64,000 nt of DNA from NCBI RefSeq assembly GCF_004005375.1, contig NZ_RZUF01000014.1:62001-126000 (forward strand), given 5' to 3'. The stretch is from Rheinheimera sediminis. GTDB lineage: Bacteria; Pseudomonadota; Gammaproteobacteria; Enterobacterales; Alteromonadaceae. Shown piece by piece: positions 43,078-64,000 of this stretch. Position 1 is the stretch's first letter. The number at the start of each line of letters is the position of its first letter. The notes under the pieces were generated by a model that worked only from the letters and a program-made list of their open reading frames with translations, had not been told where the DNA came from and searched no databases. The translations under genes were made by a program, and so were the position numbers.

Positions 43078-43233
43078 CATCACTTCTTCTGTGGCTGAAA
43101 AAAGGCGCGGCAGAGTTTAACAGAAACTGTGAGTGAACTGAATCAGTCCGGCTGAATATGCAGGCTGTTATCCAGGTTGTTACTGTACCTCAATTTATTG
43201 GACTGAATTGGTGCTGGTTGCTCAGTATTTCAC

Positions 43234-43247
43234 TGTAACCAGTTTCA
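43234..43247. promoter_or_regulatory. Operator-like site, imperfect, upstream of mannan TonB receptor
   Basis: TGTAACCAGTTTCA matches the shared palindrome TGTAACCGGTTACA at most positions. It is 159 bp upstream of the better site at 43393, so the pair could support looping by a tetrameric or dimeric LacI-type repressor. Confidence 0.45.
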
Positions 43248-43375
43248 TTGGTGTTTCTAGCGGAAAGCCGGCTAGACTTTAGTCGTATAAGTAGTGAGCG
43301 TTTTTGGTCCTAAGCCTATGTTATTTGGCGTTTAAGTCGTTTTTGTCTGATTGTAATTACAGATTTATTTCTAAT

Positions 43376-43410
43376 TTGCTCTTGCATGCTAATGTAACCG
43401 GTTATATTTT
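43376..43410 (+). promoter_or_regulatory. Operator and promoter of the mannan TonB receptor gene
   Basis: The palindrome AATGTAACCGGTTATATT (43391-43408) is of the LacI/GalR operator type with a central CCGG. A TTGCAT (43382-43387) lies 17 nt before TATTTT (43405-43410), so the operator would cover the spacer and -10 region, as expected for repression. Similar sites precede other genes of this locus. The rest of the 43084-43587 gap shows no gene. Confidence 0.7.
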
Positions 43411-43587
43411 TGTTCTGGTGCAGTTCTCAGCTGTACTGCACCAGAATGGTAAAACAGCGCTGCTATAAAAGCGAAAGACCATAACAAAGCCAACAACAGG
43501 GTGAAGGATGACAGGGCGTCTTGGGGCTCGCCGACATTATCTGACACTTAAAATAATCATAAAAACAGTAAGATAGGGGTGGAACAA

Positions 43588-46500
43588 ATGAACACATCAG
43601 CTCGATTGCCGCTGAAGCTCTCGCTATTGGCGGTAAGCTGTGCGCTGGCGTTATCTGTAGCTCAGGCGCAACAAAACAGCCAGACGCAGGATGATGCGAC
43701 TCCAGCAAGCGACAATAAAAAATCCGACAAAGATATCGAAATTATTAGCGTCAAAGGCATACGTCGCGCCCAGGAAGCGGCCATTGATGTCAAAAGGGCA
43801 GCCAGTAACATCGTAGATTCTATTGTGGCTGAAGATATAGGTAAGTTACCTGATGCCACTATTGCCGATTCGTTACAGCGTATCACCGGTGTACAGATTG
43901 ACAGAACTGCAGGTGAGGGCTCCAGTTTAAACGTGCGTGGTATGCCGCAGGTTCTGACGACACTGAACGGCGAGCAGTTCCTGAGTCCATGGTCTATTAC
44001 CAATGTACAGGCCAACTATTCTGATATTCCATCTGCGATGATTTCATCTGTGGATGTGCACAAGTCGATGCCCGCTTCGATGATTGCCGGTGGTATCTCT
44101 GGTGTGGTGGATTTAAAAACCCGTAAACCTTTGCAGATGTCGCAGGGCTGGACCGCATCAGCGGGTGTTGAAGGCTCACGAGGTTCAATTACAGAAAAAG
44201 ACAACCATGATGCCAATGCTTTTGTTGGTTTTAACAATGGTGATATTGGCTTTACGCTGGCTGCTTTTAATTCAAACAGCAACTCAGCCAACTACCAGAT
44301 GTATGAAGATTCACGTATGGCCTGGCCGAACGCTGGTGGCGATCCAACAGATTTAAATGGCAATGGTAATACAGTCAATGACAGATTTCTGGTGCCAGCA
44401 GGTTATGGCGTCAAAGCTTATGTGATGGAGCGTGAAAGAGAAGGTTTTGCCGGTTCATTGCAAAAAGTGCTTAATTCAAGTTGGACCGCCAGTGCCGAGG
44501 TGTTTTACACCAAAATGGATCAGTTTGACCGGGGTATCGAAACTCAGTTTAACGGTAGTAACAACTCCAATTACGACGTTTTAAGACCTGGCTCAGTCTT
44601 GACTGAAGAAGCCACAGTGCCGGGCATTGGTGGTGCGCCAGACCGGGTACTGCATTCACTGCAGGTTGCTGTGATTGAAGCGCCGGATTTTCAGGCCACA
44701 ACCCGTAGTCGTCAAAACCATACAGATGCAGTGAATACCAATCTGCAGCTAAACTTTGACGATGGAGGTCCTTTTACCGGCTCAGTGCGTTATGTCTATG
44801 CGACAGCAGAAAAAGTTTACGAAGACGCCACCTTCCAGCAAGGCACTCCGGCTTGGTACTGGATAGATGCAGACAATAATGGTCAGAATGACCCAAGAGA
44901 TCCGTTTAACGTAACTGTGGATTTCAGAACTGAATATCCAACTTTTAGCTATACCGATAACTTGTCTGGCGTAGACAGGCTGAACCTGTATCAGGCTTAT
45001 GCTTATGGGATTAAAGACGAAGCCAGCATGGACGCTTTCCGCGCCGATGGTAAGTACGAGTATGAACTTGGAAATTTCAGTTCCTTCGAATTTGGCGCCC
45101 GTGTGGGCACCCGTGATGTCGATACCACCCGTTATGACTATCTGACTCCTACAGGTCGCTATTCCACCTGGCAAGATCCAAGCGTAGACCCAGACCTGTG
45201 GTTCCAAATGTTACCGGGCGACAAGGTATGGCAACGTTATCCGGACTGGCGTGATTTTAAAGGCGATGGCAATCTGGGTTTACCTGCTGCCACTGACTTA
45301 CAAAGTCAGCTGATTTCTTACACCGACTTTGGTCCTTTTAAAGGCTTTGAATCCGGAGTGGCAGGTTTAGATCCTAAGTCGCTGGATAACTTGGCTCAGT
45401 TTATGGACTTTGTTTATCCCGGCGCGCAGAAGTTTAACGACCCGGCCAAAGCCTATAATGTGGAAGAACGTTCAACTTCGGCTTATTTCCAGGGCAATTT
45501 TGACGATGCCATAGGTATTTGGGGTATCCCTTATTCTGGTAATGTGGGCTTACAGGTGGTTCGCACTGACCGTACCGTAGTGCAAAGTGAAGTGCCTTTG
45601 TATTATGAAGAAGGTAACCATTTTGGTGGTGGTGCTGATGGTAGCCAATCCTGGAACTCAGTATTCAAAGCCACTGGCACTAAAGTGACTGAAGTTGATT
45701 TCACTGATTACTTACCTTCAGCCAACATCAACTTCTTCCCACATGACGATGTAGTAGTACGTTTCTCTTATGCTAAAACCATGAGCCGTAACGATTTAGT
45801 CAACGTAGGCGAAGGTTTAACCTTGTGGTATCAGCAGTACACTGTGACAGATGCGGATGGCACAGAGCGCACAGTCACCAGTGCTGGTGGTGGTAACGAT
45901 CAGGGGAATCCGAATGTGAAACCATGGCGTGCTGTGAACTACAACAGTTCAGCTGAATGGTACTTTGCCGAAGGCGGCATTTTAGGCGCTGGCATTTTCC
46001 TGATCGACGTCAAAAGCGCGACTGAGACCTTACAGGAACAGCGCCAGTACGCCGATTCTGATGGTGTGATCCGTCGCAGCGTCAACGTCTGGACGACAAA
46101 AAATGTCGGTGCTTCGGACCTGAAAGGTTTTGAGCTGGGTTATAAACAGTCGTACAACTTCTTGCCTGAGCCTTTTAACGGTTTAGGTTCAGAGTTGAAC
46201 TACACTTACTCGGACAGTGAATCGACGGACAAAGATCTGGAAGGTAATCCCTTCCCGCTGCAGTCCAACTCCAAGCACCAGTACAATGCGGTGTTGTGGT
46301 ATCAGGCCGGTCCTTTCAGTACCCGTGTGGCTTACAACTGGCGTAGTAAACAGTTTAACGGCCGGGTTGGCTTAAATACCAACGAAGCGCCTATCAGCCT
46401 GGGTAACTGGGCCAGAGACGCAGGCTATCTGGATGCTTCGATTAACTACGATCCAAACCAACATCTGACTGTCTATCTGCAGGGCACCAACTTAACTGAA

Positions 46501-46596
46501 ACCAATCAGCGCAGTTATGCTCAGTTTGAAAGCCAGTTCCACTCCATGTCAGTGCAGGAGCGTCGTATCACTTTAGGTGTACGTGCCCGTCTGTAA
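43588..46596 (+). CDS. TonB-dependent receptor for (manno-)oligosaccharide uptake
   Basis: This is a 1002-residue TonB-dependent transporter of the large carbohydrate class common in Alteromonadales and Xanthomonads. It has a signal peptide ending AQAQQ near residue 33. The plug has SVKGIRRAQEAAIDVKR, ADSLQRITGVQIDR, GSSLNVRGMPQVLTTLNGEQ and ISGVVDLKTRKPLQ, and a long barrel ends with RRITLGVRARL. It is followed by a GH26 mannanase gene and preceded by the locus operator. Start at ATG 43588 with AGGGGTGG upstream; a GTG at 43579 lies within that ribosome site. Substrate inferred from context. Confidence 0.9.
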   Translation: MNTSARLPLKLSLLAVSCALALSVAQAQQNSQTQDDATPASDNKKSDKDIEIISVKGIRRAQEAAIDVKRAASNIVDSIVAEDIGKLPDATIADSLQRITGVQIDRTAGEGSSLNVRGMPQVLTTLNGEQFLSPWSITNVQANYSDIPSAMISSVDVHKSMPASMIAGGISGVVDLKTRKPLQMSQGWTASAGVEGSRGSITEKDNHDANAFVGFNNGDIGFTLAAFNSNSNSANYQMYEDSRMAWPNAGGDPTDLNGNGNTVNDRFLVPAGYGVKAYVMEREREGFAGSLQKVLNSSWTASAEVFYTKMDQFDRGIETQFNGSNNSNYDVLRPGSVLTEEATVPGIGGAPDRVLHSLQVAVIEAPDFQATTRSRQNHTDAVNTNLQLNFDDGGPFTGSVRYVYATAEKVYEDATFQQGTPAWYWIDADNNGQNDPRDPFNVTVDFRTEYPTFSYTDNLSGVDRLNLYQAYAYGIKDEASMDAFRADGKYEYELGNFSSFEFGARVGTRDVDTTRYDYLTPTGRYSTWQDPSVDPDLWFQMLPGDKVWQRYPDWRDFKGDGNLGLPAATDLQSQLISYTDFGPFKGFESGVAGLDPKSLDNLAQFMDFVYPGAQKFNDPAKAYNVEERSTSAYFQGNFDDAIGIWGIPYSGNVGLQVVRTDRTVVQSEVPLYYEEGNHFGGGADGSQSWNSVFKATGTKVTEVDFTDYLPSANINFFPHDDVVVRFSYAKTMSRNDLVNVGEGLTLWYQQYTVTDADGTERTVTSAGGGNDQGNPNVKPWRAVNYNSSAEWYFAEGGILGAGIFLIDVKSATETLQEQRQYADSDGVIRRSVNVWTTKNVGASDLKGFELGYKQSYNFLPEPFNGLGSELNYTYSDSESTDKDLEGNPFPLQSNSKHQYNAVLWYQAGPFSTRVAYNWRSKQFNGRVGLNTNEAPISLGNWARDAGYLDASINYDPNQHLTVYLQGTNLTETNQRSYAQFESQFHSMSVQERRITLGVRARL

Positions 46597-46613
46597 CTAC
46601 AAAGCCAAAAAAC

Positions 46614-46639
46614 CGATGGGCACTGTGCCCATCGCCTTT
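46614..46639 (+). terminator. Hairpin with T-run after the TonB receptor gene
   Basis: CGATGGGCA (46614-46622) and TGCCCATCG (46626-46634) form a 9-bp stem with a 3-nt loop followed by CCTTTTT. It could end most receptor transcripts, with some read-through into the GH26 gene. Confidence 0.75.
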
Positions 46640-46642
46640 TTA

Positions 46643-46683
46643 AGATGCGCTGCAGTCTCCCTTTCCCTCGCTGCAGCGCATCT
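46643..46683 (+). promoter_or_regulatory. Second hairpin, just before the GH26 ribosome site
   Basis: GATGCGCTGCAG (46644-46655) and CTGCAGCGCATC (46671-46682) form a perfect 12-bp stem, 13 with the flanking A-T, around a pyrimidine-rich 15-nt loop. The GAGG site of the GH26 gene begins about 6 nt later. A 5' stabiliser or processing hairpin is plausible. Confidence 0.6.
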
Positions 46684-46699
46684 GTTTTGAGGACTCTCC

Positions 46700-48643
46700 A
46701 TGAATCTAACACATAGAGTAACAGCGTTAGTGCTCAGTCTGAGCCTGTCTGTTTTCACTGCTCAACCTTTAAGCGCCCAACCTTTAACCGCAGCTGACCC
46801 TGAACTGACAGCACAAGGCCGCTCCTTGCTGCAGTATTTGCATCAACAGCAGGGCAAGGGCATTTTATTTGGCCAGCAGCACGCCAGCACCAAAGTGCTG
46901 AGTAAAAAATTCGACGCCAAAGCCCATTCTGATATCGCCAGCCTAACAGGGCAGATGCCTGCCATTTATGGCTGGGATACTTTATCTATTATTCAGCCAA
47001 AACCCGAAGGGGATATCAGCGCTGCTGTTAAGGCCGCATACAGAGCTGGCGGTATTATTACCATCAGTACTCACTTTTATAACCCTGTGACAGGAGGGGA
47101 CTTTTGGGACACCCAACCTGCGGTGGCGCAAATACTGCCAGGTGGCAGTTTTCATCAGAAATTTACAGCTGAATTGGATCAGGTGGCTGACTGGGCTCAT
47201 CAGCTCAAAGCGGATGATGGCAGCTTCATTCCGGTGATCTTCCGTGTGCTGCACGAAAACACCGGCAGCTGGTTTTGGTGGGGGGCAGCACAAAGCAGCC
47301 CTGAACAATACAAAGCTTTGTTTCGCTTTATTGTTGATTACCTGCGGCTGGAAAAAGGCGTACACAATTTTTTGTATGCCTATTCACCTGCTTCAGGTTT
47401 TGCCGGCGATAAAGCAGCTTTTGCCGAGCGTTATCCGGGCGATGCTTATGTCGATGTGCTGGGGTTTGACGATTACCAGCACGGCGATACAGAGGCTTGG
47501 ATCCAGTCTGTGGTTGCCACCAGCCGGACTTTAGTGGAATTTGCCAAAGAAAGAGGCAAAGTCGCGGCCTTAACCGAATTTGGTCAGGGTAAGCCTAATG
47601 AAGCCAAAGCTGGTTTTTACCTGCCTTTGTTGCAGGCTTTAAAGGCTGACCCTCTGGCTTCGCAGCTGGTTTACATGATGACCTGGGCTAATTTTACTGC
47701 TGAGCACAGTTATGTTCCTCTGTCGACTGAGCCTGCAGTGCGGGTTGATGATTTTAAAGCTTTTGCCGCCCAGCCTTATCTGCTACTGGCAAATAAACTA
47801 CCAGCCACTTTGTATCAGCAGGATGTCGTGGTAGCCCCAGCGGCTGAACAACTGGTGTTGATGTCGCCTTTGGCCTGGCAGCCAGTACAGCGCAAGGTAC
47901 TGGTGCAACTGAAGGTACAATCTGCTCAGCCCGTCAAACAAGTCACAGTGCGGGCTCAGGGCAAGAGCTGGCCTTTGCAGCAACAAAAGTGGTACTGGAT
48001 TGCAGAGCTGCCGCTGGATCAGTTGTCGTTTCAGCAACTGCCCTTGCAGTTGGAGTTCCATGCTGACCTGAAAAACGGTCAGCTTCTGACTGAAAAACTG
48101 CCCTTGTTACCGGCTCAGCCACAGCCTGATGCCACAACGCTGTTTGATCCCAACTGGTCCAGAGGCTTTTCGCAGCGCTTACAGCAACTGATCGCTGGCA
48201 CTGGCGATGGCGTGCAGGTTGAGGCACTTTGTACTGCGTCAAACGACTGTGTATTGCAAGCCAGGTACAAGTTGCATCCAGCTGGCCATACCGGCTTACG
48301 TTATATGCCACAACAGCCTGTTATGCTGGCGGCGGGCCGGCACCTGAGCTTCTATCTGCAACCTGATCAAAAGATGCAGCGTCTGGCGCTGGAACTGTTC
48401 AGTGCTGGAAAAAGTTACTACCAGAGCGTGGATCTCAGCCAGTGGCCTGTACAGCCCGGAACTGAGTTCAGGCAAGGCCAGGACGTGAAGCTTGAACTAC
48501 AGAAGTTTTGTAATCAGCAGCAGTGTTTTAGCGGTGGAGAGCTTAGTCAGCTGGCGGTGTTTATCCATGCAGCGGACCCGGCTTTGGCAAACCAGACCTT
48601 ATCGGGCCAGATGAAACTGGGAGCCATTCGGCTGCTGCCTTGA
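46700..48643 (+). CDS. GH26 beta-mannanase, secreted
   Basis: This is a 647-residue glycoside hydrolase family 26 endo-beta-1,4-mannanase. A signal peptide ends near residue 26 (LSAQP). The catalytic domain spans about 35-360: GWDTLSIIQP, the acid/base Glu at residue 186 in VLHENTGSWFWWG, and the nucleophile Glu at residue 293 in LTEFGQGK. The following WANF/EHSYVPL segment is also typical. Residues about 380-640 form beta-rich domains that look like carbohydrate-binding or Ig-like modules. It cleaves internal mannosidic bonds of mannan/galactomannan. Convergent with the GH5 gene, with only 14 nt between stops. Confidence 0.92.
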   Translation: MNLTHRVTALVLSLSLSVFTAQPLSAQPLTAADPELTAQGRSLLQYLHQQQGKGILFGQQHASTKVLSKKFDAKAHSDIASLTGQMPAIYGWDTLSIIQPKPEGDISAAVKAAYRAGGIITISTHFYNPVTGGDFWDTQPAVAQILPGGSFHQKFTAELDQVADWAHQLKADDGSFIPVIFRVLHENTGSWFWWGAAQSSPEQYKALFRFIVDYLRLEKGVHNFLYAYSPASGFAGDKAAFAERYPGDAYVDVLGFDDYQHGDTEAWIQSVVATSRTLVEFAKERGKVAALTEFGQGKPNEAKAGFYLPLLQALKADPLASQLVYMMTWANFTAEHSYVPLSTEPAVRVDDFKAFAAQPYLLLANKLPATLYQQDVVVAPAAEQLVLMSPLAWQPVQRKVLVQLKVQSAQPVKQVTVRAQGKSWPLQQQKWYWIAELPLDQLSFQQLPLQLEFHADLKNGQLLTEKLPLLPAQPQPDATTLFDPNWSRGFSQRLQQLIAGTGDGVQVEALCTASNDCVLQARYKLHPAGHTGLRYMPQQPVMLAAGRHLSFYLQPDQKMQRLALELFSAGKSYYQSVDLSQWPVQPGTEFRQGQDVKLELQKFCNQQQCFSGGELSQLAVFIHAADPALANQTLSGQMKLGAIRLLP

Positions 48644-48657: not shown

Positions 48658-49893
48658 TTATTTGAATGCGCTGCTGCCTGACATCAGCGCATTCAGGGCT
48701 TGTTGATCCAGTACTTTGTTTTGGCGCCTGTCCAGCAAAGAACCAGTGTCCCAGTAAAAGGGCACTAGGCCATGTGCTATGGCGCTTTTGGTCACGTAGT
48801 TAAAATAGTGAGCCCTGCTATTGAGGTGGCGTGTTCGCTCGTCACCTGTCAGCTTACCGCGGATGTCAGCACCAAACTCGCCCAAAATAACGGGTATGCC
48901 TGCGTCTACAAATTGTTTTTTCACAGAGCTAAACATCTGATCGACGTAGTCTTCATCTGTGCTGGCGTTGCGTTCAGAATCGTTGTCAGACATAAAGTCT
49001 TTACCCCAGTAGTAGGCCGCTTTGCCCCAGGATGCATCGTCAGCCATCAGGGTGAAGTTATAGGGGCTGTAATAGTGTAGCTCCAGCATCATGCGATCTT
49101 TAGTTGGATCTTCAGGAAGCTGATGCATCCAGTTGCGGGTTTTTTCGATATCAGTGGACGGTCCTTGCACCACCAAAGTCCGGTAGCTGTTTTTGCCGCC
49201 TGTGGCCCGGACTGTATCAATAAAGGTCTGGTGATAAGACAACAGCACCGCCATCTGCTCAGCGTTTTCGGCATGTGGCTCGTTGGCGCTGGCAAAGATC
49301 AGACGCTCGTCAAAATCACGCAATAAAGTAGCGATTTGTTGCCAGTAGGCTTTTTGGCGGGCATTCACCTGCTGCTGTTTTTCAGGCGTTACATTGCGCT
49401 CCAGCCAACCACCATCCCAGTGAATATTCACCAGCACATACAAGTCGTTATCGATGCAGTACTGCACCACCTGTTTAATGCGATTTTGCCAGGCTGGATC
49501 GATAGCGGCAGTGCTCTGATCTGCATATTGGTCCCAGGACACAGGTAAACGTATCGCATTAAAACCAGATTTTTTTGCCAGGGCGATAAAGTCGGCTGTA
49601 ATGGCTGGGTTGCCCCAGGATTTTTCCCCCTGGTTGCCAACAGCCTCCAGCGTATTGCCTTTATTCAGTCCTATCCGGATACGGCTGGCCAGTTCTCTGG
49701 CAGTACTGCTCATTCCAGTCTTATCCGGCGCTGCTGGATTGGTATTGTAATCCGAAAACTGCTGCTGAACTGAACCAGTGGAAGCAGCGTCCTGCACCGA
49801 AGGGCTGTTGGGGTTGCCACTGCAGGCATGGAGCGAACAGAACGTCAGCAGCAGCACCACATATTTTGCATAGTTGAAAGCAAGTCTAAACAT
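48658..49893 (-). CDS. GH5-family endoglycanase lipoprotein
   Basis: This is a 411-residue lipoprotein (signal ending SLHAC) with a GH5 catalytic domain. Features: IGLNKGNTLEAVG, FNAIRLPVSWDQY, NEP with acid/base Glu at residue 205, ELHYYSPYNFT, and VILGEFGAD with nucleophile Glu at residue 339. The motif pattern is close to cellulase/xyloglucanase-type subfamilies of GH5, so activity on the glucan part of glucomannan is possible; mannanase activity is not excluded. It is last in the five-gene minus-strand operon. Start at ATG 49893 with AAGGA upstream. Confidence 0.83.
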   Translation of the reverse strand: MFRLAFNYAKYVVLLLTFCSLHACSGNPNSPSVQDAASTGSVQQQFSDYNTNPAAPDKTGMSSTARELASRIRIGLNKGNTLEAVGNQGEKSWGNPAITADFIALAKKSGFNAIRLPVSWDQYADQSTAAIDPAWQNRIKQVVQYCIDNDLYVLVNIHWDGGWLERNVTPEKQQQVNARQKAYWQQIATLLRDFDERLIFASANEPHAENAEQMAVLLSYHQTFIDTVRATGGKNSYRTLVVQGPSTDIEKTRNWMHQLPEDPTKDRMMLELHYYSPYNFTLMADDASWGKAAYYWGKDFMSDNDSERNASTDEDYVDQMFSSVKKQFVDAGIPVILGEFGADIRGKLTGDERTRHLNSRAHYFNYVTKSAIAHGLVPFYWDTGSLLDRRQNKVLDQQALNALMSGSSAFK

Positions 49894-49925
49894 CTGATTA
49901 TCCTTAAATCCAGTAATCCTCACAG

Positions 49926-55225: not shown

Positions 55226-56403
55226 AAGCCTAAATCCTTTAAAGCCTGCTCATTGCCGTCGACCAACGCATTGATGCGCTGCACTGTTAAGGCGGAGCGA
55301 TAACCGTCTTCCGGTGTATTGATAGCGTAATCGACCAGTTGCGCCACTGTGCTGGTGGCAACATGCATACGGGTATCGGATGAGGCGTAATAAATAAAAA
55401 CTTCGTTGTTTTCGTTTACTATCCAGCCGTTACTGAAGGTCACGTTTGATACGTCGCCCACCCGCTCTGCGCCTTCAGGGGCAATAAAATGACCTGCTGG
55501 TCTGTGGGTCACCAGCCAGGGTTTGTCTAAGTCGGTCATAAAGACATAAAGCACATAACGTAAACCTGCCGCCGTGTTACGTACCGCATGAGCTAAATGC
55601 AGCCAACCTTGGTCGGTTTTGATGGGGGCAGGGCCCTGGCCGTTTTTCACTTCATGAATAGCGTGATACACCTTAGGGTCTACGATCTGTTCTTGCTTCA
55701 CTTCGGCATTGACCATAGAGTCTGTTAAACCCCAGCCGACACCGCCGCCACTGCCAACACTGATAAAACCATCTTGGGGTCTGGTGTATAAGGCATATTT
55801 GCCATCGACAAATTCCGGGTGCAATACCACATTGCGCTGCTGGCCTGAATAAGTGACTAAATCCGGTAAACGTTCCCAATTGACTAAATCTTTGGTACGG
55901 GCAATGCCACACTGAGCTTCAGCTGCGGAGGTATCATTAGGCCGGCTTAAATCTTTACGCTCAGTACAAAACAAACCATAGATATAACCATCGGCATGAG
56001 CCGTCAAACGCATATCGTAGACGTTGGTGTCTGGCCTGTCAGTTTCCGGCATAGTGACGGGCTTAGGCCAGAACACAAAGTTATCCACGCCATTGGCGCT
56101 TTCAGCCACAGCAAAAAAAGATTTACGGTCGTTGGCTTCCACCCGCACCATCAGCAGGTATTTACCCTGCCAATGGATGGCACCAGCGTTAAAAGTGGCA
56201 TTGATGCCATTGCGCTCCAGCAACAAAGGATTACGTTGTTCGTTAAAGTCATAACGCCAGGTTAAAGGTGCATGAGCTGCAGTTAAAATAGGATTGTGCC
56301 AGCGGCGATAAATACCGTTACCTGTGGCGACAGGCTGGTTAGGTAAAGAGACTAATTTTTGATGCTCTGCAAATAATTGTGCTACGTTTTGCTTAAAAGT
56401 CAT
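55222..56403 (-). CDS. GH130 4-O-beta-D-mannosyl-D-glucose phosphorylase
   Basis: This is a 393-residue family GH130 inverting phosphorylase, cytosolic. It carries the GH130 features RNPLLLERNGINATFNAGAI, VYDMRLT with the presumed acid Asp at residue 130, FCTERKDLSRPN, and GSGGGVGWGLTDS. Length and motifs fit subfamily 1, which splits mannosyl-beta-1,4-glucose with phosphate to give mannose-1-phosphate and glucose. The adjoining epimerase makes exactly that substrate, and a phosphohexomutase lies in the same locus. First gene of a five-gene operon, with the LacI-type operator 70-90 nt upstream. Its ribosome site is weak. Confidence 0.9.
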   Translation of the reverse strand: MTFKQNVAQLFAEHQKLVSLPNQPVATGNGIYRRWHNPILTAAHAPLTWRYDFNEQRNPLLLERNGINATFNAGAIHWQGKYLLMVRVEANDRKSFFAVAESANGVDNFVFWPKPVTMPETDRPDTNVYDMRLTAHADGYIYGLFCTERKDLSRPNDTSAAEAQCGIARTKDLVNWERLPDLVTYSGQQRNVVLHPEFVDGKYALYTRPQDGFISVGSGGGVGWGLTDSMVNAEVKQEQIVDPKVYHAIHEVKNGQGPAPIKTDQGWLHLAHAVRNTAAGLRYVLYVFMTDLDKPWLVTHRPAGHFIAPEGAERVGDVSNVTFSNGWIVNENNEVFIYYASSDTRMHVATSTVAQLVDYAINTPEDGYRSALTVQRINALVDGNEQALKDLGL

Positions 56404-56474: not shown

Positions 56475-56490
56475 TGGGAACCGGTTACAT
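56475..56490. promoter_or_regulatory. Operator of the GH130 operon
   Basis: TGGGAACCGGTTACAT, one half of which is a perfect match to the locus palindrome (GGTTACA) and the other a weaker match. It is 72-87 nt upstream of the GH130 start, so the five-gene operon has its own regulated promoter and is not just read through from the symporter gene. Confidence 0.65.
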
Positions 56491-56538: not shown

Positions 56539-58398
56539 TTATTTATGAGTAACGATTTCGCCTGATAGGTCCGAAACTACAGGCCGATCGTCAGGATGGT
56601 CGCGTAAATGATCCCACCAGTGGTACTTCAGGAAAATACTGGTCAGAGCCGCTACCAGCATGGCACCAGCAAAAGCTTGCCATTGCTGGATCACCATAAA
56701 AATAGGTGCTGCTGTTAAACTGGTATGCCAGACAATGCCAACACAGACATTGGCCATATCACGACCAAAATCACGGTTAGGCACAATAGCGGCATTGTCT
56801 TTTTGCAGTTCAGCCAGAACCGGAGCCCAGAAACCCCAGGGTCTGGTTTTACGATAGAATTCTTTTAACACCGCCATTTCATCTGCTGGTGTCAATAAGC
56901 TTGCCACTACGCAGGTCAGCAAACAAAATGCAAAGAGCGCAGGGAAGGCATACAGAGGTGACACTGAGGTAAACATCATAGGAATAGCAGTGACAATACC
57001 AGCCAGCATACCAAAGAAATAACCATAGCCGTTAAAGCGCCACCAGTACCATTTCAGTAAGTTGGCTGCGGTGTAACCACCGTACAAAGCTGAAACCAGC
57101 CATAAAATCAGTTCATTCAGCGATGGAATAAACAGGCCTATGGCAGTACCAATCAGCACGAATAATACCGAAACTAAGTAACTGAGTTTGACATAAGTTT
57201 TAGGCGCGGCATTGGCATTGACGTACTTTTTATAGATGTCGTTCACCAGATAAGCAGGGGCTGCGTTGACAGTAGCGGCAAAGGTCGACATAAAAGTCGC
57301 CAGTAAACCCGCTATGACCAAACCTAACAAACCAGCCGGAATATAGTTGACCAAGGCAAAAGGCAGAATTTGTTCAAAGTCGACATTCGGGCCCATCGCA
57401 TTGAGTTCATCGCGGAAAAATACCAGAGCCAATACAGCTAAACCTGTGATCATCATATAACGTGGAAACAGCAGTACCACATTCACAACCCAGCTCATTT
57501 TAGCTGCTTCCACCGGAGTTTTAGCCGATAACACCCGCTGCATATCATAGTTAGGTGCAGGGCCTGCCATGCTTTGTAAAAAGCCTTTAAACAGTACCAG
57601 CATAAAAAACACTGAAAACAATGACCAGCCATCTTCTACTATTTTCTGATTGGCCGATGCCAGTAGCTCTGACCAATCCAGCTCCAGGTTCCAGCCAAAA
57701 GCCAGGCTATGCCAGCCTTCAGGCACAGCGGCAGCAAGCATCTCCGGCGATACCTGCATCATGGCAATGATACCTATAGCGATACAGGCGAAAGTCATAA
57801 TAATAAACTGCACCACCTCAGTGATCACTACACTGAACATGCCCCCTTTGACCACATAAGCTGTGGTGATTAAGGTGATGATTAAACCGTACAACACTTC
57901 GTTGCTATGAGCATCAGCCGACAGTTGCCATGGCAAAAAGGCGGCGGCAAATTTACCTATGCCGATAAAACCATAAGCCAGAAAGCCAATCACGCTTAAT
58001 AGTGCAAACAGCACTACGATTAAATGGCTCCACTGGGCGCCTCTGCTGTTACCAAAGCGGAAGGTGATCCATTCAGCGCCTGTCATCACGCCAGAGCGGC
58101 GCAGCCAGATCGACAAAAACACCATCAGGAAAATTTGATTAAAAGCAGGCCAGAGCCAGGGGATAAACACGCTTTTCAAACCATAAATAAATAGCAGATA
58201 CACCATCCACATGGTGCCGCTGATATCAAACATACCTGAAGCATTCGACAAGCCCAGATAATACCAGGGCATTTTATTACCACCGAGGAAGTAACTTTGC
58301 ATATCCTTGTTGGCTTTATTGGCAATCCAAAAGCCGATCCATAGCGACAGGGCAATATAAGCCAGCACTATGGCAATATCTATAGGAGCTAAATTCAT
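56539..58398 (-). CDS. Sodium:solute symporter (SSS family), probable mannobiose/mannose importer
   Basis: This is a 619-residue inner-membrane symporter with 13-14 hydrophobic helices. It opens with APIDIAIVLAYIALSLWIGFWIANKANKDMQSYFLGGN (quoted here as the SSS start: 'DIAIVLAYIALSLWIGFW'), then YYLGLSNASGMFDISGTMW, GGMFSVVITEVVQF and a long C-terminal tail. SSS proteins of this group in Alteromonadales accompany glycan loci and take up sugars with Na+. No PTS or ABC sugar importer is present here, so this is the best candidate for moving mannobiose to the cytosolic epimerase. A palindromic operator is about 105 nt upstream. Confidence 0.85.
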   Translation of the reverse strand: MNLAPIDIAIVLAYIALSLWIGFWIANKANKDMQSYFLGGNKMPWYYLGLSNASGMFDISGTMWMVYLLFIYGLKSVFIPWLWPAFNQIFLMVFLSIWLRRSGVMTGAEWITFRFGNSRGAQWSHLIVVLFALLSVIGFLAYGFIGIGKFAAAFLPWQLSADAHSNEVLYGLIITLITTAYVVKGGMFSVVITEVVQFIIMTFACIAIGIIAMMQVSPEMLAAAVPEGWHSLAFGWNLELDWSELLASANQKIVEDGWSLFSVFFMLVLFKGFLQSMAGPAPNYDMQRVLSAKTPVEAAKMSWVVNVVLLFPRYMMITGLAVLALVFFRDELNAMGPNVDFEQILPFALVNYIPAGLLGLVIAGLLATFMSTFAATVNAAPAYLVNDIYKKYVNANAAPKTYVKLSYLVSVLFVLIGTAIGLFIPSLNELILWLVSALYGGYTAANLLKWYWWRFNGYGYFFGMLAGIVTAIPMMFTSVSPLYAFPALFAFCLLTCVVASLLTPADEMAVLKEFYRKTRPWGFWAPVLAELQKDNAAIVPNRDFGRDMANVCVGIVWHTSLTAAPIFMVIQQWQAFAGAMLVAALTSIFLKYHWWDHLRDHPDDRPVVSDLSGEIVTHK

Positions 58399-58502: not shown

Positions 58503-58516
58503 TGTAACCGGTTACT
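58503..58516. promoter_or_regulatory. Operator upstream of the symporter gene
   Basis: TGTAACCGGTTACT, matching 13 of 14 positions of the perfect palindrome. It lies 105-118 nt upstream of the symporter start, and about 420 nt from the divergent LacI gene, so autoregulation is possible but less likely. Confidence 0.7.
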
Positions 58517-58882: not shown

Positions 58883-58936
58883 AAAAAATAACAATGCTGA
58901 AAAATGCAAATAAATCAGTCACTAAGGTTCGTTTCC

Positions 58937-59941
58937 ATGTCTACTATCCGCGATGTATCCAAACAGGCAGGTCTATCTATAGCTACAGTATCCCGGGCTT
59001 TGAGTACACCGGAGAAAGTGTCCCCAGAAAGCCTGAAGCGAGTGCAGGCTGCGATAGAAAAGCTGCAATACAGGCCCAATATGTTGTCGCAGAAATTCCG
59101 CTACAACAGCGCCAACAGCATAGTAGTGCTGGTGCCTAATATAGCTAATTTGTTTTTCTCCACAGTGATCAGTGGTATTGAAAACGTGGCACAAAAACGC
59201 GGTTTTAACGTCTTGCTCGGCGATACCCGCGATTCTATGCAGCGTGAGCAAGAATTTGTCCATTTAGTAGAGACCCGCCAGGCTGATGGTTTAATCCAGT
59301 TACGGCCTTACAAAGCCAACAACAGTTTATTGCCTAAAGCCCATGTCACAGCAGTGAATGCCAGCGGTTGTGAAAATACACCTTACCCTACAGTGCGTAT
59401 CGACAATGTTGCTGCTGCACAAGAAGTGATGCGGTATCTGATTTCGCTCGGACACAAACGTATTGGTATGATTTCAGGCTTAAAAGACAACCCGCACGCT
59501 ATAGATCGAATGCGGGGTTACAAAGCAGCTTTGGCTGAAGCCGGTATCGAATTTGACCCGGCTTTAGTGACGGAAGGCGACTTTACCTTGTGGTCAGGTT
59601 TGAATGCATCTGGTCATTTCAGCCGGATGCCAACCCCACCAACTGCGCTGTTTTGCATGAATGATGAAATGGCCATTGGTGCGATTAAGGGATTGAAAAG
59701 TAAAGGATTCAGAGTACCAGAAGATATTTCTGTCACAGGTTTTGACGATCTGGAGTTTGCCAAATACAGTGATCCTGCATTAACCACCATAGCTCAACCT
59801 GCAGGTAAAATAGGTGAAAAGGCCGCAGAGTTGTTGTTCCAGCTACTGGACGGTACTCATGAGGGCAGCACAGAGTTTGTTTTACCTTACGAATTTGTCA
59901 TTCGCCAAAGTACTGGGCCAGCACCACAACAGCAGAATTAA
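58937..59941 (+). CDS. LacI-family transcriptional regulator of the mannan locus
   Basis: This is a 334-residue LacI/GalR regulator. The N-terminal helix-turn-helix reads STIRDVSKQAGLSIATVSRAL, followed by the hinge helix region (NMLSQKFRYNSANSIVVLVP) and a periplasmic-binding-type effector domain (GISVTGFDDLEFAKY-like segment seen as DISVTGFDDLEFAKYSDP). CytR/CelR-like overall. It probably binds the TGTAACCGGTTACA sites in this window and is released by a mannose-derived sugar; both are inference from position. Start at ATG 58937, the conserved LacI start; an upstream ATG at 58904 is in frame. Confidence 0.9.
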   Translation: MSTIRDVSKQAGLSIATVSRALSTPEKVSPESLKRVQAAIEKLQYRPNMLSQKFRYNSANSIVVLVPNIANLFFSTVISGIENVAQKRGFNVLLGDTRDSMQREQEFVHLVETRQADGLIQLRPYKANNSLLPKAHVTAVNASGCENTPYPTVRIDNVAAAQEVMRYLISLGHKRIGMISGLKDNPHAIDRMRGYKAALAEAGIEFDPALVTEGDFTLWSGLNASGHFSRMPTPPTALFCMNDEMAIGAIKGLKSKGFRVPEDISVTGFDDLEFAKYSDPALTTIAQPAGKIGEKAAELLFQLLDGTHEGSTEFVLPYEFVIRQSTGPAPQQQN

Positions 59942-59977: not shown

Positions 59978-60006
59978 TTGCAAAGCGCAATGTAACCAGT
60001 TACATT
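59978..60006 (+). promoter_or_regulatory. Promoter and operator of the AGE2-phosphohexomutase operon
   Basis: AATGTAACCAGTTACATT (59989-60006) is a palindrome with one central mismatch. TTGCAA (59978-59983) and TACATT (60001-60006) with a 17-nt spacer make a plausible promoter that the operator overlaps. The gene starts 96 nt further on. Confidence 0.7.
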
Positions 60007-60101: not shown

Positions 60102-61277
60102 ATGTTGTCGTTACTGATGCAAAGCCAGAAATTCACTGCCTGGCTGAAAAACTCGGCGCTGCCATTCTGGAGCCAGCGAGGTATTAATCCAAAAACGGGC
60201 GCTGTGTACGAAAAATTTAATGCTGAGCATCAGCCAGATCTCAGCGCTGTGTTCAGAAGTAGGGTGCAGGCCAGGCAAATCTTTGTGTTTGCAGCCGCTT
60301 ATCAGCAAGGCTGGTTACCTGATGCACTGGAAAAAGTGGCAGCTATACAGCAGTTTTTAAATCAGCACGCAAAAAAACACAGTACTGCCGCAGGTTATGT
60401 GCACAGCCTGAACTCTGCCGGCCAGCAGTTGGATCAAAAACTGGATGCCTATGATTTTGCCTTTTTCCTGCTGTCTTGCGCGTACAGATATCAGAGTTTT
60501 TCTGATCTGCAGGCGCTGGATCAGGCTAATAAATTACTCGAATACATAGAGCAGCAATTCCGCGCCGCGCCAGGGGGGTGGATGGAGGGGGACTACAGCA
60601 GCCCTTACCGTCGGCAAAACCCTCATATGCATTTGTTTGAAGCTTTTTTGGCTTTGTACCAAGCGACCAAAGATGGCAAATGGCTGGCTAAAGCCGGACA
60701 AATTTACACCTTGTTTGAGACTGTGTTTTTCCGCCCACAACAAGGTATTTTACTGGAATACTTTACTGAGCAATGGCAGCCAATGCCTGGAGTTCAAGGC
60801 CAAATCGTTGAGCCAGGGCACATGTTTGAATGGGTCTGGTTATTGCGCTGGTATCAGCAACTGACGGCTACTCCTGTGGATCATTATTGCGAAACCTTGT
60901 ACCAAAATGGCCTGAAGCTGGGTCTTGAAGCGAGCTCAGGGCTGATTTACGACGAAGTACTGCTCAGTGGTGAAGTGGTTAAAAACACCAAAAGACTCTG
61001 GCCTCTGACTGAGCTTATTAAAGCCAGTCTGGCTCAGGCCAAAGCCAGCTTGGATCTGCCTGCTCAACAGGCTGCGGAGCAGCAGGCTGCTGTGGCTATA
61101 GATTTACTGTTTCGTTTTTATCTGAACTCAAATGTAACCGGTTTATATATCGATCAGCTTGATGCTGAGAATCAGATTTGTGTGGCGGAGGCGCCAGCCA
61201 GTACACTCTATCATCTGATGGTCGCAGGCTTAGAAGCCCAGGCCTATTGTCAAACACAGCAAAACGGAAAACTCTGA
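60102..61277 (+). CDS. AGE-family isomerase, probable D-mannose isomerase
   Basis: This is a 391-residue cytosolic member of the AGE superfamily, distinct from the epimerase at 54029. Diagnostic blocks: RQNPHMHLFEAFLALY, then IVEPGHMFEWVWLLRWY; the EPGHxFEWxWLL motif is that of the mannose isomerase/YihS and mannose-6-phosphate isomerase-like branch. It would interconvert mannose and fructose, using mannose freed by the exported glycosidases. Sugar specificity is not readable from the motifs. Start at ATG 60102 with AGGTG upstream; ATG 60117 is possible. Its stop overlaps the next start (TGATG). Confidence 0.83.
   Translation: MLSLLMQSQKFTAWLKNSALPFWSQRGINPKTGAVYEKFNAEHQPDLSAVFRSRVQARQIFVFAAAYQQGWLPDALEKVAAIQQFLNQHAKKHSTAAGYVHSLNSAGQQLDQKLDAYDFAFFLLSCAYRYQSFSDLQALDQANKLLEYIEQQFRAAPGGWMEGDYSSPYRRQNPHMHLFEAFLALYQATKDGKWLAKAGQIYTLFETVFFRPQQGILLEYFTEQWQPMPGVQGQIVEPGHMFEWVWLLRWYQQLTATPVDHYCETLYQNGLKLGLEASSGLIYDEVLLSGEVVKNTKRLWPLTELIKASLAQAKASLDLPAQQAAEQQAAVAIDLLFRFYLNSNVTGLYIDQLDAENQICVAEAPASTLYHLMVAGLEAQAYCQTQQNGKL
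61133..61147. promoter_or_regulatory. Operator-like sequence inside the AGE2 coding region
   Basis: TGTAACCGGTTTATA sits in frame in codons for Asn-Val-Thr-Gly-Leu, about 145 nt before the phosphohexomutase start. It matches the locus operator in 12 of 14 core positions. It may be a chance match or a downstream auxiliary operator. Confidence 0.35.
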
Positions 61278-62635
61278 TGTGGTCAACTGACTGTTTTAAA
61301 ACTTACGATATTCGCGGCATAGTACCGACCCAACTGAATGAGGGGCTGGCCTATCGTATAGGTCGTGCTTTATGCCAACAGTTGTCGCCAAAAACTGTAG
61401 TTATAGGTCATGACATCCGTTTATCCAGCCCGTCTTTAAGTGCTGCTTTGGCACGAGGACTACAGGATGGCGGCGCTGATGTGATTGATATAGGCTTATG
61501 TGGTACTGAGCAAGTGTATTTTTCAGTATTTCATCTGGACGCTGATGCCGGTATTTGCGTTACAGCCAGCCACAATCCTGCCAACTACAACGGTATGAAG
61601 TTTGTTGGTAAAGGCTCAGCGCCTATCAGCGCAGACACAGGGCTGAATGCTATTCGGGATTTGGTCGCCAGCGCGGAATTTCTTGCTCCAGCCACCAAAG
61701 CAGGGTATCAACAGCAAAATACCTTGCCAGCTTATGTGGAACATCTGTTGACCTACCTGGATGTCAAAGCACTAAAACCACTGAAAGTAGTGATGAACCC
61801 AGGCAATGGTGGGGCAGGGCTAGTGGTGAATGCGCTGGCGCCTTTGCTACCCATAGAGATAGTGCCGCTGCAGTTTGATCCGGACGGGACTTTCCCACAT
61901 GGGGTGCCTAATCCTTTGCTGGTGGAAAACCGCTTAAGTACCAGTGCAGCTATTACAGCTTGTCACGCCGATTTAGGCGTCGCCTGGGATGGTGACTTTG
62001 ACCGCTGCTTCTTCTTTGATGAACAAGGCCAGTTTGTCGATGGTTATTATCTGGTGAGTTTATTGGCCAAAGCTTTATTGCTAAAACATCCGGGTGAAAA
62101 AATCATTCATGATCCGAGGCTGTATTGGGCGACTCAGCATACAGTAAAAGCTGCAGGTGGTGTGCCTGTGATCAGTAAAACCGGCCATGCTTATATCAAA
62201 GAGAAAATGCGCGCTGAAGATGCACTTTATGGTGGCGAAATCAGTGCTCATCATTATTTTCGTGACTTTGCCTATTGCGACAACGGCACTATTCCCTGGT
62301 TGCTGATGCTGGCTTTATTGTCTGCCACAGCTCAACCTCTATCTGCTTTAGTAGAGCAGTTGCAGCAGCAATTCCCTTGTAGCGACGAGCTGAATTTTAA
62401 AGTCACAGATGCAAAAGCTGCCATAGCTGCTATTGCCGCTTTGTATCAGCCGCAGGCCTCAGAGGTAGATCTGCTGGATGGTTTAGGCCTGAGTTTTGCC
62501 GACTGGCGCTTTAATCTGCGGATGTCGAACACTGAGCCTTTGCTGCGACTAAATGTCGAAACCAGAGCGAACACTAACTTACTGGCCAGAAAAATTGCTG
62601 AAATCACCTCCGCATTACAGCCCTTTTTGGCTTAG
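61277..62635 (+). CDS. Phosphomannomutase/phosphoglucomutase
   Basis: This is a 452-residue alpha-D-phosphohexomutase (AlgC/ManB type). The four family sites are present in order: phosphoserine loop TASHNP with Ser at residue 98; metal site DGDFDRC; sugar-binding GGEISAHHYF; and phosphate-binding MSNTEPLLRLN. In this locus it would convert mannose-1-phosphate from the GH130 reaction to mannose-6-phosphate. ATG 61277 overlaps the preceding stop, so it is translationally coupled; the frame is open further upstream (to 61178), but that part overlaps the AGE2 gene. Confidence 0.93.
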   Translation: MWSTDCFKTYDIRGIVPTQLNEGLAYRIGRALCQQLSPKTVVIGHDIRLSSPSLSAALARGLQDGGADVIDIGLCGTEQVYFSVFHLDADAGICVTASHNPANYNGMKFVGKGSAPISADTGLNAIRDLVASAEFLAPATKAGYQQQNTLPAYVEHLLTYLDVKALKPLKVVMNPGNGGAGLVVNALAPLLPIEIVPLQFDPDGTFPHGVPNPLLVENRLSTSAAITACHADLGVAWDGDFDRCFFFDEQGQFVDGYYLVSLLAKALLLKHPGEKIIHDPRLYWATQHTVKAAGGVPVISKTGHAYIKEKMRAEDALYGGEISAHHYFRDFAYCDNGTIPWLLMLALLSATAQPLSALVEQLQQQFPCSDELNFKVTDAKAAIAAIAALYQPQASEVDLLDGLGLSFADWRFNLRMSNTEPLLRLNVETRANTNLLARKIAEITSALQPFLA

Positions 62636-62655
62636 TTAGCCTAAAGGCTTGAAGA

Positions 62656-62686
62656 TAGAAAAGGGCGCTTAAAGCGCCCTTTTCTA
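62656..62686. terminator. Bidirectional terminator after the phosphohexomutase gene
   Basis: A perfect 13-bp stem (TAGAAAAGGGCGC at 62656-62668, complement at 62674-62686) has a 5-nt loop. The A/T-rich outer stem gives a T-run in both directions between two convergent genes. Confidence 0.9.
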
Positions 62687-62710
62687 TTTGGATAAAGTGT
62701 TAACTCTTGT

Positions 62711-64000
62711 TTACAACGCATTCATCGCTGCAGCATGAGCTTTCAGTATACCAATGGTACTTTGGTCCTGATCAAAGACTGAATTCAAGCCCTGCGGCTC
62801 CTGTGGCGGATCGCCCAGATAGTCATCGCCTGCTTGCCAAATAAAATCAGCCCTTTGAGTTCGTCCTGCACCACCCCAGGTCCAAAAGTTAGAGCCAGCA
62901 ATAGAACGGCCGGCTTTGGCTTCCTTTTCAATCAACTGAAAGAACTCGCTATAAAACTTATCACGCCAGACTGTAGTGGCTTGGGGTCTGTAGTCAGCGC
63001 CGTCTCTTTCTATGCCAAACTCTTCCATCACCAGCGGCTTGTTCATCTGATCGGCCACGGCTATATGTTGCTCTATATAAGTTTTAGCTGTTGCAAGACC
63101 CGACTCATAGGTCTGTTCCGCCTGAGTGATATCAAACCACTGCCAGTTTTTTGGCCAAAGGTGAAAGGTCAGGTAGTCCACAAAAGGCGACTGGTGGGCT
63201 TCAATAAACAAATTCATATCATCCAGCGCGCCACGGCTGCCTTCACTGCCGGTCGAAACCAGCTGTTGTGGTGCTAGTTGTTTAATGAACTGGGCTGTTT
63301 CATGAACCCACTGCACATAAACTTCGGCGTTTTCAGCGCCAGCCTCACCGCTACCTGGCCGCGGTTCATTCGCTAACTGCCAGCTCATAATAGTGGGGTC
63401 GGCTTTGTAGGCCACTCCAGTCACTGTATTGGTGCGCTCTATCAGTTGCTTGATCAGGCTACGGTATAAAGCCTGCGATTCGGCCAGGCGATAAAACCGT
63501 GCCGAGTTTTGCATAAAGGCATTCCAGTCTTTGGTTAAGTCGGGGTCCAGCACAGGCTCGCCTGTCTGCCAGGCCACATACTGTGACATGCCACCAGACC
63601 ACTGCCAGAAGTTATTCAAAAACAGCACAGCTTTCATCTCGCGCTTGGCCATTTCTGCCAGCAGAAAATCCAGCCCTTGCCATAAGTCTTCATCGATTTG
63701 GCCTGGTGCCGTCTGAATAGCAGGTTTTAATGACATCACCAGAGCGCTGGCTTCAGAGGCCGCCAGCACCCTTAAGTTAGTCACACCAGCAGCTTTTAAC
63801 TGATCCAGCTCTTGGATTAAACGCGCTCTGTCACCTTTAGCGCCAGCGGCGCCCAAGTAAGCGCCATACCAAAAGTTTGTGCCGACAAAATAATAGGGCT
63901 TACCTGCCAGTTGGAATTGCTTACCTTTTACTTGCACAAAAGCTGAAGGCGCTGCAGTTTCTGTCGCGACCAGAGTTTCTTGTGACATAGGCGCTTTACC
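62711..64000 (-). CDS. GH5 (subfamily 7-like) endo-beta-mannanase, 5' end outside the window
   Basis: This is at least 429 residues of a GH5 mannanase. Motifs: GKPYYFVGTNFWYGAYLG near the start, GVTNLRVLAASE, FLNNFWQWSGGMSQYVAW, WQLANEPRPG with the acid/base Glu, a TFHLWPKNWQWF segment and KPLVMEEFGIERDG with the nucleophile Glu. These are typical of family 5 subfamily 7 mannanases. An ATG lies at 63988, but the frame stays open to the window edge with a Thr/Ala/Pro-rich linker and no signal peptide yet, so the true start is almost certainly beyond 64000. A secreted or lipoprotein mannanase is expected. Confidence 0.88.
   Translation of the reverse strand, partial: GKAPMSQETLVATETAAPSAFVQVKGKQFQLAGKPYYFVGTNFWYGAYLGAAGAKGDRARLIQELDQLKAAGVTNLRVLAASEASALVMSLKPAIQTAPGQIDEDLWQGLDFLLAEMAKREMKAVLFLNNFWQWSGGMSQYVAWQTGEPVLDPDLTKDWNAFMQNSARFYRLAESQALYRSLIKQLIERTNTVTGVAYKADPTIMSWQLANEPRPGSGEAGAENAEVYVQWVHETAQFIKQLAPQQLVSTGSEGSRGALDDMNLFIEAHQSPFVDYLTFHLWPKNWQWFDITQAEQTYESGLATAKTYIEQHIAVADQMNKPLVMEEFGIERDGADYRPQATTVWRDKFYSEFFQLIEKEAKAGRSIAGSNFWTWGGAGRTQRADFIWQAGDDYLGDPPQEPQGLNSVFDQDQSTIGILKAHAAAMNAL

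Follow-up and report, generated by a model that had tools for sequence, protein, structure and literature searches.

We consider it probable that a gene cluster of Rheinheimera sediminis is a LacI-controlled β-(gluco)mannan regulon whose epimerase/GH130_1/mutase/AGE2 route ends in fructose-6-phosphate, and what seems to be new in it is the second AGE-family protein, AGE2, as the putative last enzyme of the pathway, drawn from a family other than the textbook one. The cluster lies in the window, by which we mean the whole 64,000-nt stretch of DNA that was analysed (assembly GCF_004005375.1, contig NZ_RZUF01000014.1, positions 62,001-126,000, forward strand). In the route as predicted, for activities, localisation and direction of flux alike, the polymer would be trimmed outside the cytoplasm by GH26, GH5, and GH3 enzymes together with an esterase, and the disaccharides would be imported via TonB receptors and a sodium symporter. 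A cytoplasmic epimerase would convert mannobiose to mannosyl-glucose, which GH130_1 would cleave phosphorolytically to give glucose and mannose-1-phosphate; the latter would be turned into mannose-6-phosphate by the mutase, and AGE2, replacing the usual class I ManA, would carry this on to fructose-6-phosphate, with the operons controlled by the LacI regulator on TGTAACCGGTTACA. The sequences themselves establish what the genes are, that AGE2 and ManA swap slots, and how the palindromes are distributed. If this is true, the pathway from mannan to glycolysis is closed, a protein annotated merely as 'AGE family epimerase/isomerase' in a relative gains a role, a mannose-6-phosphate isomerase (PMI) type from one rhizobium becomes a widespread catabolic enzyme, and a residue signature together with the operator allows prediction in other genomes. 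The absence of ManA need not mean the absence of mannose-6-phosphate isomerase, and a co-regulated mannan gene set would make this overlooked AGE family easily testable.

Gene content and extent of the locus

All of the gene types that the earlier note had listed for positions 43084-64000 (TonB receptor, GH26, GH5, GH3, GH130, two AGE proteins, SSS, LacI, and phosphohexomutase) were found. Its "two or three GH5" proved to be three, the third beginning outside the window, and the locus continues for ~5 kb beyond the window end, up to a second TonB receptor, giving the following genes.

43579..46596, +, TonB-dependent receptor 1, TonB-Xanth-Caul type (TIGR01782, 582 bits, cut-off 310)
46700..48643, +, GH26 β-mannanase (nearest solved structure the mannanase 2bvt, 313.7 bits)
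48658..49923, -, endo-glucanase-like GH5, presumably of subfamily GH5_4, CjCel5D-like (5oyc, 497 bits)
49980..52502, -, GH3 with Exop_C domain, probable exo-β-glucosidase (no NCBIfam cut-off passed)
52526..54001, -, divergent GH5-like enzyme (sequence matches are GH5 mannanases)
54029..55225, -, AGE1, predicted cellobiose/mannobiose 2-epimerase, EpiA-like (NF041848, 9l8i, tree)
55222..56403, -, GH130 (GH130_1, predicted mannosylglucose phosphorylase; 3was, 580 bits; 5ay9, 472; next best, 88.5)
56539..58398, -, SSS-family sodium:solute symporter, probable disaccharide carrier (family matches)
58904..59941, +, LacI-family regulator (family matches)
60102..61277, +, AGE2, AGE-family, putative type III (Sinorhizobium Pmi-like) mannose-6-phosphate isomerase (sequence comparison and context)
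61277..62635, +, phosphomannomutase/phosphoglucomutase (NF011943, 573.6 bits, below the cut-off of 801)
62711..64000, -, Man5A-like exo-β-mannosidase, start 57 bases beyond the window end (= L003:6711-8057; 1uuq, 499.7 bits)
L003:8054-9988, outside the window, SASA-type esterase
L003:10104-13097, outside the window, TonB receptor 2

The locus is not a chance assembly, since its core recurs in related genomes with a common operator-like palindrome. The open-reading frames of AGE2 and the mutase apparently overlap by 100 bases; with TGATG at 61275-61279 and starts picked by eye, it is more likely that the AGE2 stop and the mutase ATG share a single base.

The closest match of the GH5 at 48658, whose N-terminus looks lipoprotein-like by eye, is the glucanase-type Cel5D of C. 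japonicus, so that this enzyme is probably not a mannanase, and a reading of all three GH5 enzymes as mannanases was ruled out. The divergent GH5 at 52526 matched no Pfam family at E 0.001, and its candidate catalytic residues, E220 and E299, are invariant in five of five aligned sequences; the Man5A-like enzyme we take to belong to GH5_7. The glucanase-like GH5 and the GH3 of exo-glucosidase type, along with cellobiose being a substrate of cellobiose epimerases as well, would fit a locus devoted mainly to glucan or xyloglucan with mannan as a side substrate, which we regard as very unlikely given that the GH26 mannanase, the Man5A-like exo-mannosidase, GH130_1, and the phosphomannomutase occur together, and that in L008, the nearest relative, the compared stretch retains the mannan core but lacks GH3, the glucanase-like GH5, GH26, and receptor 1.

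For uptake in the proposed mannan route, the earlier suggestion that a TonB receptor and a symporter replace SusCD survived in its first half. The TonB receptors are of the TIGR01782 type, no SusD family was seen among the locus proteins scanned, and, judging from their family, the receptors may take the SusCD role. The second half was rejected, as SSS proteins are inner-membrane carriers and one is also found near GH130 in at least four Bacteroidota loci (L020, L027, L028, and L031; 46-61% identity) among the matches listed (22 loci, L019-L040).

The epimerase-phosphorylase pair and related systems

The assignment of the GH130 protein to GH130_1, made in the earlier note, was borne out by its match to the B. 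fragilis mannosylglucose phosphorylase 3was, and phosphorolysis of mannosyl-glucose is predicted; mannooligosaccharide and β-1,2-mannobiose phosphorylases were rejected at 88.5 bits or less. Profile and structure matches likewise agree with the neighboring AGE protein being its cellobiose-2-epimerase-type partner. Among solved structures, AGE1 matched cellobiose epimerases at 298 (9l8i) down to 214 bits and other AGE proteins at 103 bits or less; it fails the NCBIfam EpiA cut-off (NF041848, 494.5 bits vs 800), although this is still the top-scoring family there.

Contrary to what had been supposed, the route is not new to gammaproteobacteria, since EpiA and UnkA of Cellvibrio vulgaris are already published, reportedly as an epimerase/GH130 route by Saburi et al. 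in 2015. Both organisms are gammaproteobacteria with a cellobiose 2-epimerase and a GH130 mannosylglucose phosphorylase; the comparison covers this enzyme pair, which in Rheinheimera is joined to the SSS carrier, the LacI regulator, and the AGE2-phosphomannomutase (PMM) operon. Senoura et al. are said to have described the Bacteroides fragilis mannan route with the mannosylglucose phosphorylase BF0772 in 2011. The cytosolic chemistry to mannose-1-phosphate would be the same, whereas Rheinheimera has TIGR01782-type TonB receptors with no SusD seen, and AGE2 as a proposed extra step. UnkA is entered in one published table as a mannosylglucose phosphorylase (PMC8950772). According to the account of its β-mannan PUL, Muricauda sp. 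MAR_2010_75 resembles Rheinheimera in having GH26, GH130, an epimerase, and a symporter that carries disaccharides to the cytosol, and differs in being a member of the Bacteroidota with a SusC channel and an AraC-type regulator (PMC9860051).

AGE2 as a candidate mannose-6-phosphate isomerase

The earlier note, which assigned AGE2 no separate function, had the pathway end at mannose-6-phosphate. This is probably not the end point, as AGE2 is best read as an isomerase; most likely it acts on mannose-6-phosphate and is of the rare "type III" kind represented by the Sinorhizobium Pmi, with which the pathway would end in fructose-6-phosphate. This PMI type was reportedly first found in one rhizobium, in a 1992 report on the S. 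meliloti Pmi. In blastp, AGE2 scored 149-186 bits against the S. meliloti Pmi, the AGE portion of a fusion protein from the same species, a Rhizobium fusion annotated rfaE2, and AGEs of Deinococcus and Gemmobacter, as opposed to 62 bits or less against 12 cellobiose-epimerase-type rows, the mannose-isomerase-like AGE3 of its own genome, and YihS. Homology to the S. meliloti Pmi, an annotated gene, is full-length (~31%, 170 bits) and above that to other AGE branches, while its surroundings differ, lying near a ROK-family gene and metH and outside a mannan locus. The S. meliloti fusion joins NTP_transferase, a ManC helix, and AGE, the first two being guanylyltransferase-like domains. AGE2 and the Pmi-type rows form a clade of 23 rows (support 100/99), apart from the cellobiose-epimerase-type clade (100/100), in a tree built without AGE proper (N-acylglucosamine 2-epimerase) and for which the program warns of long branches meeting at the key split.

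AGE2 keeps the AGE-superfamily residues R58, H177, E180, H240, E243, W300, E304, and H371, whose roles we take to be catalytic. R52, R54, R298, K307, and S367 are conserved in all 23 rows of the clade and occur in none of 14 others, the rows having been hand-picked to include 18 of the AGE2 type, 5 of the Pmi type, 12 of the cellobiose-epimerase type, and 2 others. Among solved structures, neither AGE2 (best 68.3 bits) nor the S. meliloti Pmi (best 51.3 bits) has a near relative. An AGE-family protein inside a mannan locus could also be a further disaccharide 2-epimerase, with longer or gluco-manno oligosaccharides among its conceivable substrates; this is extremely improbable in view of the low scores against all 12 cellobiose-epimerase-type rows, the position outside their clade, and the D and S at positions 351 and 367, where those rows carry W and K. 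Cellobiose epimerase activity as such was rejected on blastp scores and the tree.

The catalytic residues are also compatible with action on a free sugar, AGE2 being a mannose isomerase or mannose 2-epimerase working on Man5A-freed mannose, with a kinase afterwards. The exo-mannosidase of the locus would release mannose, and AGE2 matches the NCBIfam D-mannose isomerase family weakly (43 bits against a cut-off of 600). In C. adriaticum, the gene of an AGE2 homologue (44%) overlaps one for a hexokinase; we count this in favor of the mannose-6-phosphate isomerase reading, although that kinase could use fructose too. We nevertheless find action on a free sugar unlikely. The genome already encodes, side by side on contig C68, a mannose-isomerase-like AGE, a kinase resembling fructokinase, and a sugar permease, and AGE2 matches that AGE at 54.7 bits, compared with 170 for the S. 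meliloti Pmi. AGE2 also exchanges its slot with ManA, a phosphosugar enzyme, and is coupled here to a phosphomannomutase gene.

The class I domain PMI_typeI_cat is absent from AGE2 itself, and a search of the whole assembly at E 0.001 gave no match to it. Elsewhere in the genome, PF01050 marks two genes of type II PMI/GMP-like character, so that AGE2 is not strictly needed for PMI activity, and its reading as the sole possible PMI was rejected. Among the open-licence literature matches listed, titles and abstract openings gave no instance of an AGE-type PMI linked to mannan utilisation. Two AGE2 relatives sit in heptose-synthesis clusters, and the branch may therefore have several substrates. 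We give an even chance to the wider proposal that this AGE branch, sampled here by 23 sequences, comprises phosphosugar isomerases for manno-configured sugars, acting on mannose-6-phosphate in mannan loci and guanylyltransferase-like fusions and possibly on manno-heptose-7-phosphate in the Rhizobium and Gemmobacter heptose clusters. The phosphate would be bound by the cationic R52, R54, R298, and K307 with S367, and in many marine gammaproteobacteria the branch would be the one that usually provides the catabolic PMI for growth on mannan, changing places with ManA behind a shared LacI operator.

Exchange with ManA and the operator-like palindrome

AGE2 occupies the genomic slot of ManA. Thirty GH130_1 loci contained AGE2 in 16 cases (with two more nearby) and class I ManA in eight, with both in none; L012 and L015 were scored as "AGE2 nearby" from contig coordinates, assuming that contig numbers equal record names. 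Across 28 genomes, namely 19 GH130 carriers and those of the 11 named gammaproteobacterial loci L008-L018 with the exception of L008 and L013 (9 in all), AGE2 was found in 18, class I PMI in 10, both in 2, and neither in 2. In the loci, L013 included, class I PMI was sought by tblastn with two Catenovulum sequences; L135, which tblastn did not reach, was scored class I from a Pfam match alone, L128 was scored "neither" and omitted from the GH130 tree, and L125, L133, and L136 stand in that tree without a state. The exchange requires only two changes on the tree, so the Fisher p of 5e-4 overstates independence. In Catenovulum (L016 and L017), class I ManA adjoins the same LacI with the palindrome in front, oriented as AGE2 is in Gilvimarinus. 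In favor of the isomerase assignment, one AGE2-bearing genome (G147) yielded no PMI of type I, type II, or PGI/PMI type in a Pfam search. Counting against it, a PMM gene lies in the compared stretch of only 8 of the 16 AGE2 loci and adjoins AGE2 in three (the window, L008, and L095), which slightly lowers our confidence, and a related AGE of Deinococcus AJ005 directly adjoins a class I PMI. Order-wide co-occurrence in 148 genomes (AGE2 in 7, class I PMI in 45, both in 1, G082) is uninformative, because class I PMI occurs in 0 of the 10 own-family genomes of that sample.

The palindrome stands in front of AGE2 in only 11 of 18 cases, a variant found afterwards being present in 3 of the remainder; for L009 and L011, the AGE2 starts were shifted downstream of the longest-ORF start after sites had been seen inside the ORF. 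Within the locus, one operator-like palindrome, TGTAACCGGTTACA, precedes four operons, at these sites.

43234..43247, TGTAACCAGTTTCA, upstream of TonB receptor 1, one mismatch to TGTAACCRGTTACA
43393..43406, TGTAACCGGTTATA, upstream of TonB receptor 1, one mismatch
56476..56489, GGGAACCGGTTACA, weaker site between GH130 and SSS, two mismatches
58503..58516, TGTAACCGGTTACT, SSS/LacI divergent region, one mismatch
59991..60004, TGTAACCAGTTACA, upstream of AGE2-PMM

The LacI regulator would pair with this palindrome as its operator. Genome-wide, there are four sites with one mismatch or fewer, all of them inside the locus and one before AGE2-PMM.

Extent and enzymes of the mannan locus

The window corresponds to C7:62001-126000 of a 4.49-Mb genome in 100 contigs. 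Family scans of the window proteins recovered every gene type that the earlier note had listed for a mannan locus at 43084..64000, but the end proposed there has to be moved, as the locus runs beyond the window to position 13097 of L003, the stretch spanning the window end, with these genes across or past that end:

L003, start at 8057: exo-mannosidase (GH5, Man5A-like)
L003, after the exo-mannosidase: SASA-type esterase
L003, after the esterase, ending at 13097: second TonB receptor (receptor 2)

A HipA-like protein is encoded past receptor 2 (L003:14160-15422). Elsewhere in the window are an ArsN1 family B arsinothricin N-acetyltransferase (41440-41925; 239 bits, cut-off 210) and a 1215-residue protein (28287-31934) in which ABC-type substrate-binding, PAS, GGDEF and EAL domains are combined.

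Against solved structures, GH130 (55222-56403, minus strand) scored 580 and 472 bits to two mannosylglucose phosphorylases and at most 88.5 bits to all others, and because both so far outscore the rest it was assigned to GH130_1, the mannosylglucose phosphorylase subfamily, in agreement with the earlier proposal. The adjacent AGE-family protein, AGE1 (54029-55225, minus strand), matched cellobiose 2-epimerase structures at 298 bits and the EpiA model at 494.5 bits, under its cut-off of 800. GH26 matched mannanases and the GH5 at the window end matched Man5A (1uuq, 499.7 bits), while the GH5 at 48658 matched Cel5D (5oyc, 497 bits), therefore indicating a glucan. The protein at 52526-54001 (minus strand) had no Pfam family at E 0.001; it resembles GH5 mannanases across ~150 residues and has two candidate catalytic glutamates, both invariant in 5/5 homologues, and from its sequence may represent an undescribed GH5 subfamily. 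Relatives of this protein occur in many related loci.

Among the best 80 of 359 GH130 matches, the closest loci were from Gilvimarinus, Thalassomonas, Paraglaciecola, Catenovulum, Pseudoalteromonas and other gammaproteobacteria, followed mainly by Bacteroidota. The nearest relative, L008 (GH130 94% identical), keeps the order receptor 2 (partial, at the stretch end), esterase, Man5A, phosphomannomutase (PMM), AGE2, LacI, SSS symporter, GH130, AGE1 and divergent GH5; GH3, the glucanase-like GH5, GH26 and receptor 1 were absent from the L008 stretch examined, which runs 7 kb further. Across 30 GH130_1 loci (those of 28 genomes plus L008 and L013), an SSS carrier relative was present in 10 and an MFS_2-type carrier, its family assigned from L096, in nine.

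AGE2 as a putative mannose-6-phosphate isomerase

The phosphorolytic mannan route is already known, Cellvibrio included, and all enzyme activities given here are inferred. The addition made here is the assignment, from sequence, of the second AGE-family protein, AGE2 (60102-61277, plus strand), as a probable catabolic mannose-6-phosphate isomerase (PMI), a role for which no description was found among the matches listed in open-licence literature.

A tblastn search of a plasmid collection with AGE2 gave a full-length match to an S. meliloti gene annotated pmi, mannose-6-phosphate isomerase (H23), reportedly the topic of a 1992 paper. PMI types I, II and III have been distinguished (PMC4718643). 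AGE2 scored 149-186 bits to five Pmi-kind proteins; its scores to YihS, to AGE3 (the mannose-isomerase-like protein of its own genome) and to 12 rows of cellobiose-epimerase type did not exceed 62 bits. In a 37-row tree, 18 AGE2-type and five Pmi-type rows formed a single clade (100/99), with a program warning that long branches join at the split setting this clade apart and with the N-acetylglucosamine 2-epimerase family left out. The clade retains the catalytic residues shared with other AGE rows, and R52, R54, R298, K307 and S367, which are candidates for phosphate binding, are identical in 23/23 of its rows and 0/14 others. When S. meliloti Pmi was aligned with 2gz6, an N-acetylglucosamine 2-epimerase, F and W were seen by eye at the R52 and R54 positions.

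That AGE2 instead acts on free mannose is less likely, because a cassette of three consecutive genes on contig C68 (L101:6419-9908) likely serves as the free-mannose route:

C68: fructokinase-like kinase, 219 bits (cut-off 450)
C68: AGE3, D-mannose-isomerase-like, 197.8 bits (cut-off 600)
C68: GluP-type sugar permease, 310 bits (cut-off 202.55)

Gene neighbors also bear on the isomerase assignment. In the window the AGE2 stop and PMM start share one base. PMM is present in 8/16 stretches with AGE2: it adjoins AGE2 in three (window, L008, L095), a single gene separates the two in three (L018, L126, L127), and it lies elsewhere in two (L097, L098). The intervening gene in L018 (3856-5685) and L126 (15216-17057) encodes a sulfatase, hinting at a sulfated substrate there. 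On S. meliloti pSymB (L103:4885-7188), a related single protein of 767 residues joins guanylyltransferase-like domains (NTP_transferase and a ManC-type helix) to an AGE domain, the position that a cupin PMI domain occupies in type II enzymes. The gene of a C. adriaticum AGE2 relative (44%) overlaps a hexokinase gene. A point against the assignment is Deinococcus AJ005, where a related AGE gene has a class I PMI gene as its neighbor. In Rhizobium and Gemmobacter, relatives stand among heptose genes, and Pmi-related AGE proteins within ADP-heptose clusters (L142, L144) perhaps fill a sedoheptulose-7-phosphate isomerase role.

Exchange of AGE2 with class I isomerases

AGE2 lay inside the stretch examined in 16/30 GH130_1 loci and nearby in two more (L012, ~10 kb, and L015, ~15 kb from GH130 in contig coordinates), class I PMI in eight (L016, L017, L129-L132 and L134 by tblastn; L135 by Pfam), and neither in four (L125, L128, L133, L136), with AGE2 on another contig in the L125 genome and class I PMI on another contig in that of L133. 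The two occurred together in 0/30 stretches. By genome (n = 28), 18 had AGE2, 10 class I PMI, two both (G082, G401) and two neither (G262, G375); Fisher p was 5e-4, uncorrected for kinship. The state changes only twice on the GH130 tree, and the exchange therefore represents two events, not eight.

The Catenovulum swap is the more telling one. GH130 of its loci, L016 and L017, groups among AGE2-type loci with moderate supports (85/85 and 90/86), and its class I enzyme, ManA, adjoins the orthologous LacI gene, oriented as AGE2 is in Gilvimarinus; an AGE2 homologue is present as well in the genome of L017, on a different contig. G147 has AGE2, and Pfam detected in it neither a type I nor a type II PMI, nor one of PGI/PMI type. 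The window's own genome gave no class I PMI match and has two type II-like PMI genes on contig C79.

Operator-like palindromes

A search of intergenic stretches brought up palindromes resembling TGTAACCGGTTACA. The window holds five sites (ten matches over both strands) against 0.84 matches expected, and 0/100 shuffles reached ten. The assembly has four sites with ≤1 mismatch, all within the mannan locus:

Upstream of receptor 1 (43579-46596)
SSS/LacI gap
Upstream of AGE2-PMM
Upstream of receptor 2

Allowing ≤2 mismatches gave 23 sites in the assembly, and the reversed control gave 11. At this threshold, sites in relatives lay near the starts of AGE2 (11/18), class I PMI (2/7, both Catenovulum), PMM (4/8) and SSS/MFS carriers (13/15), and the reversed pattern gave 0 in all four sets. 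No such site was found upstream of AGE2 in L124, L104 or L100. A variant recognized post hoc, ATGAACCGGTTCAT or one base off, lies upstream of AGE2 in L014, L018 and L126, and in L095 upstream of the carrier only.
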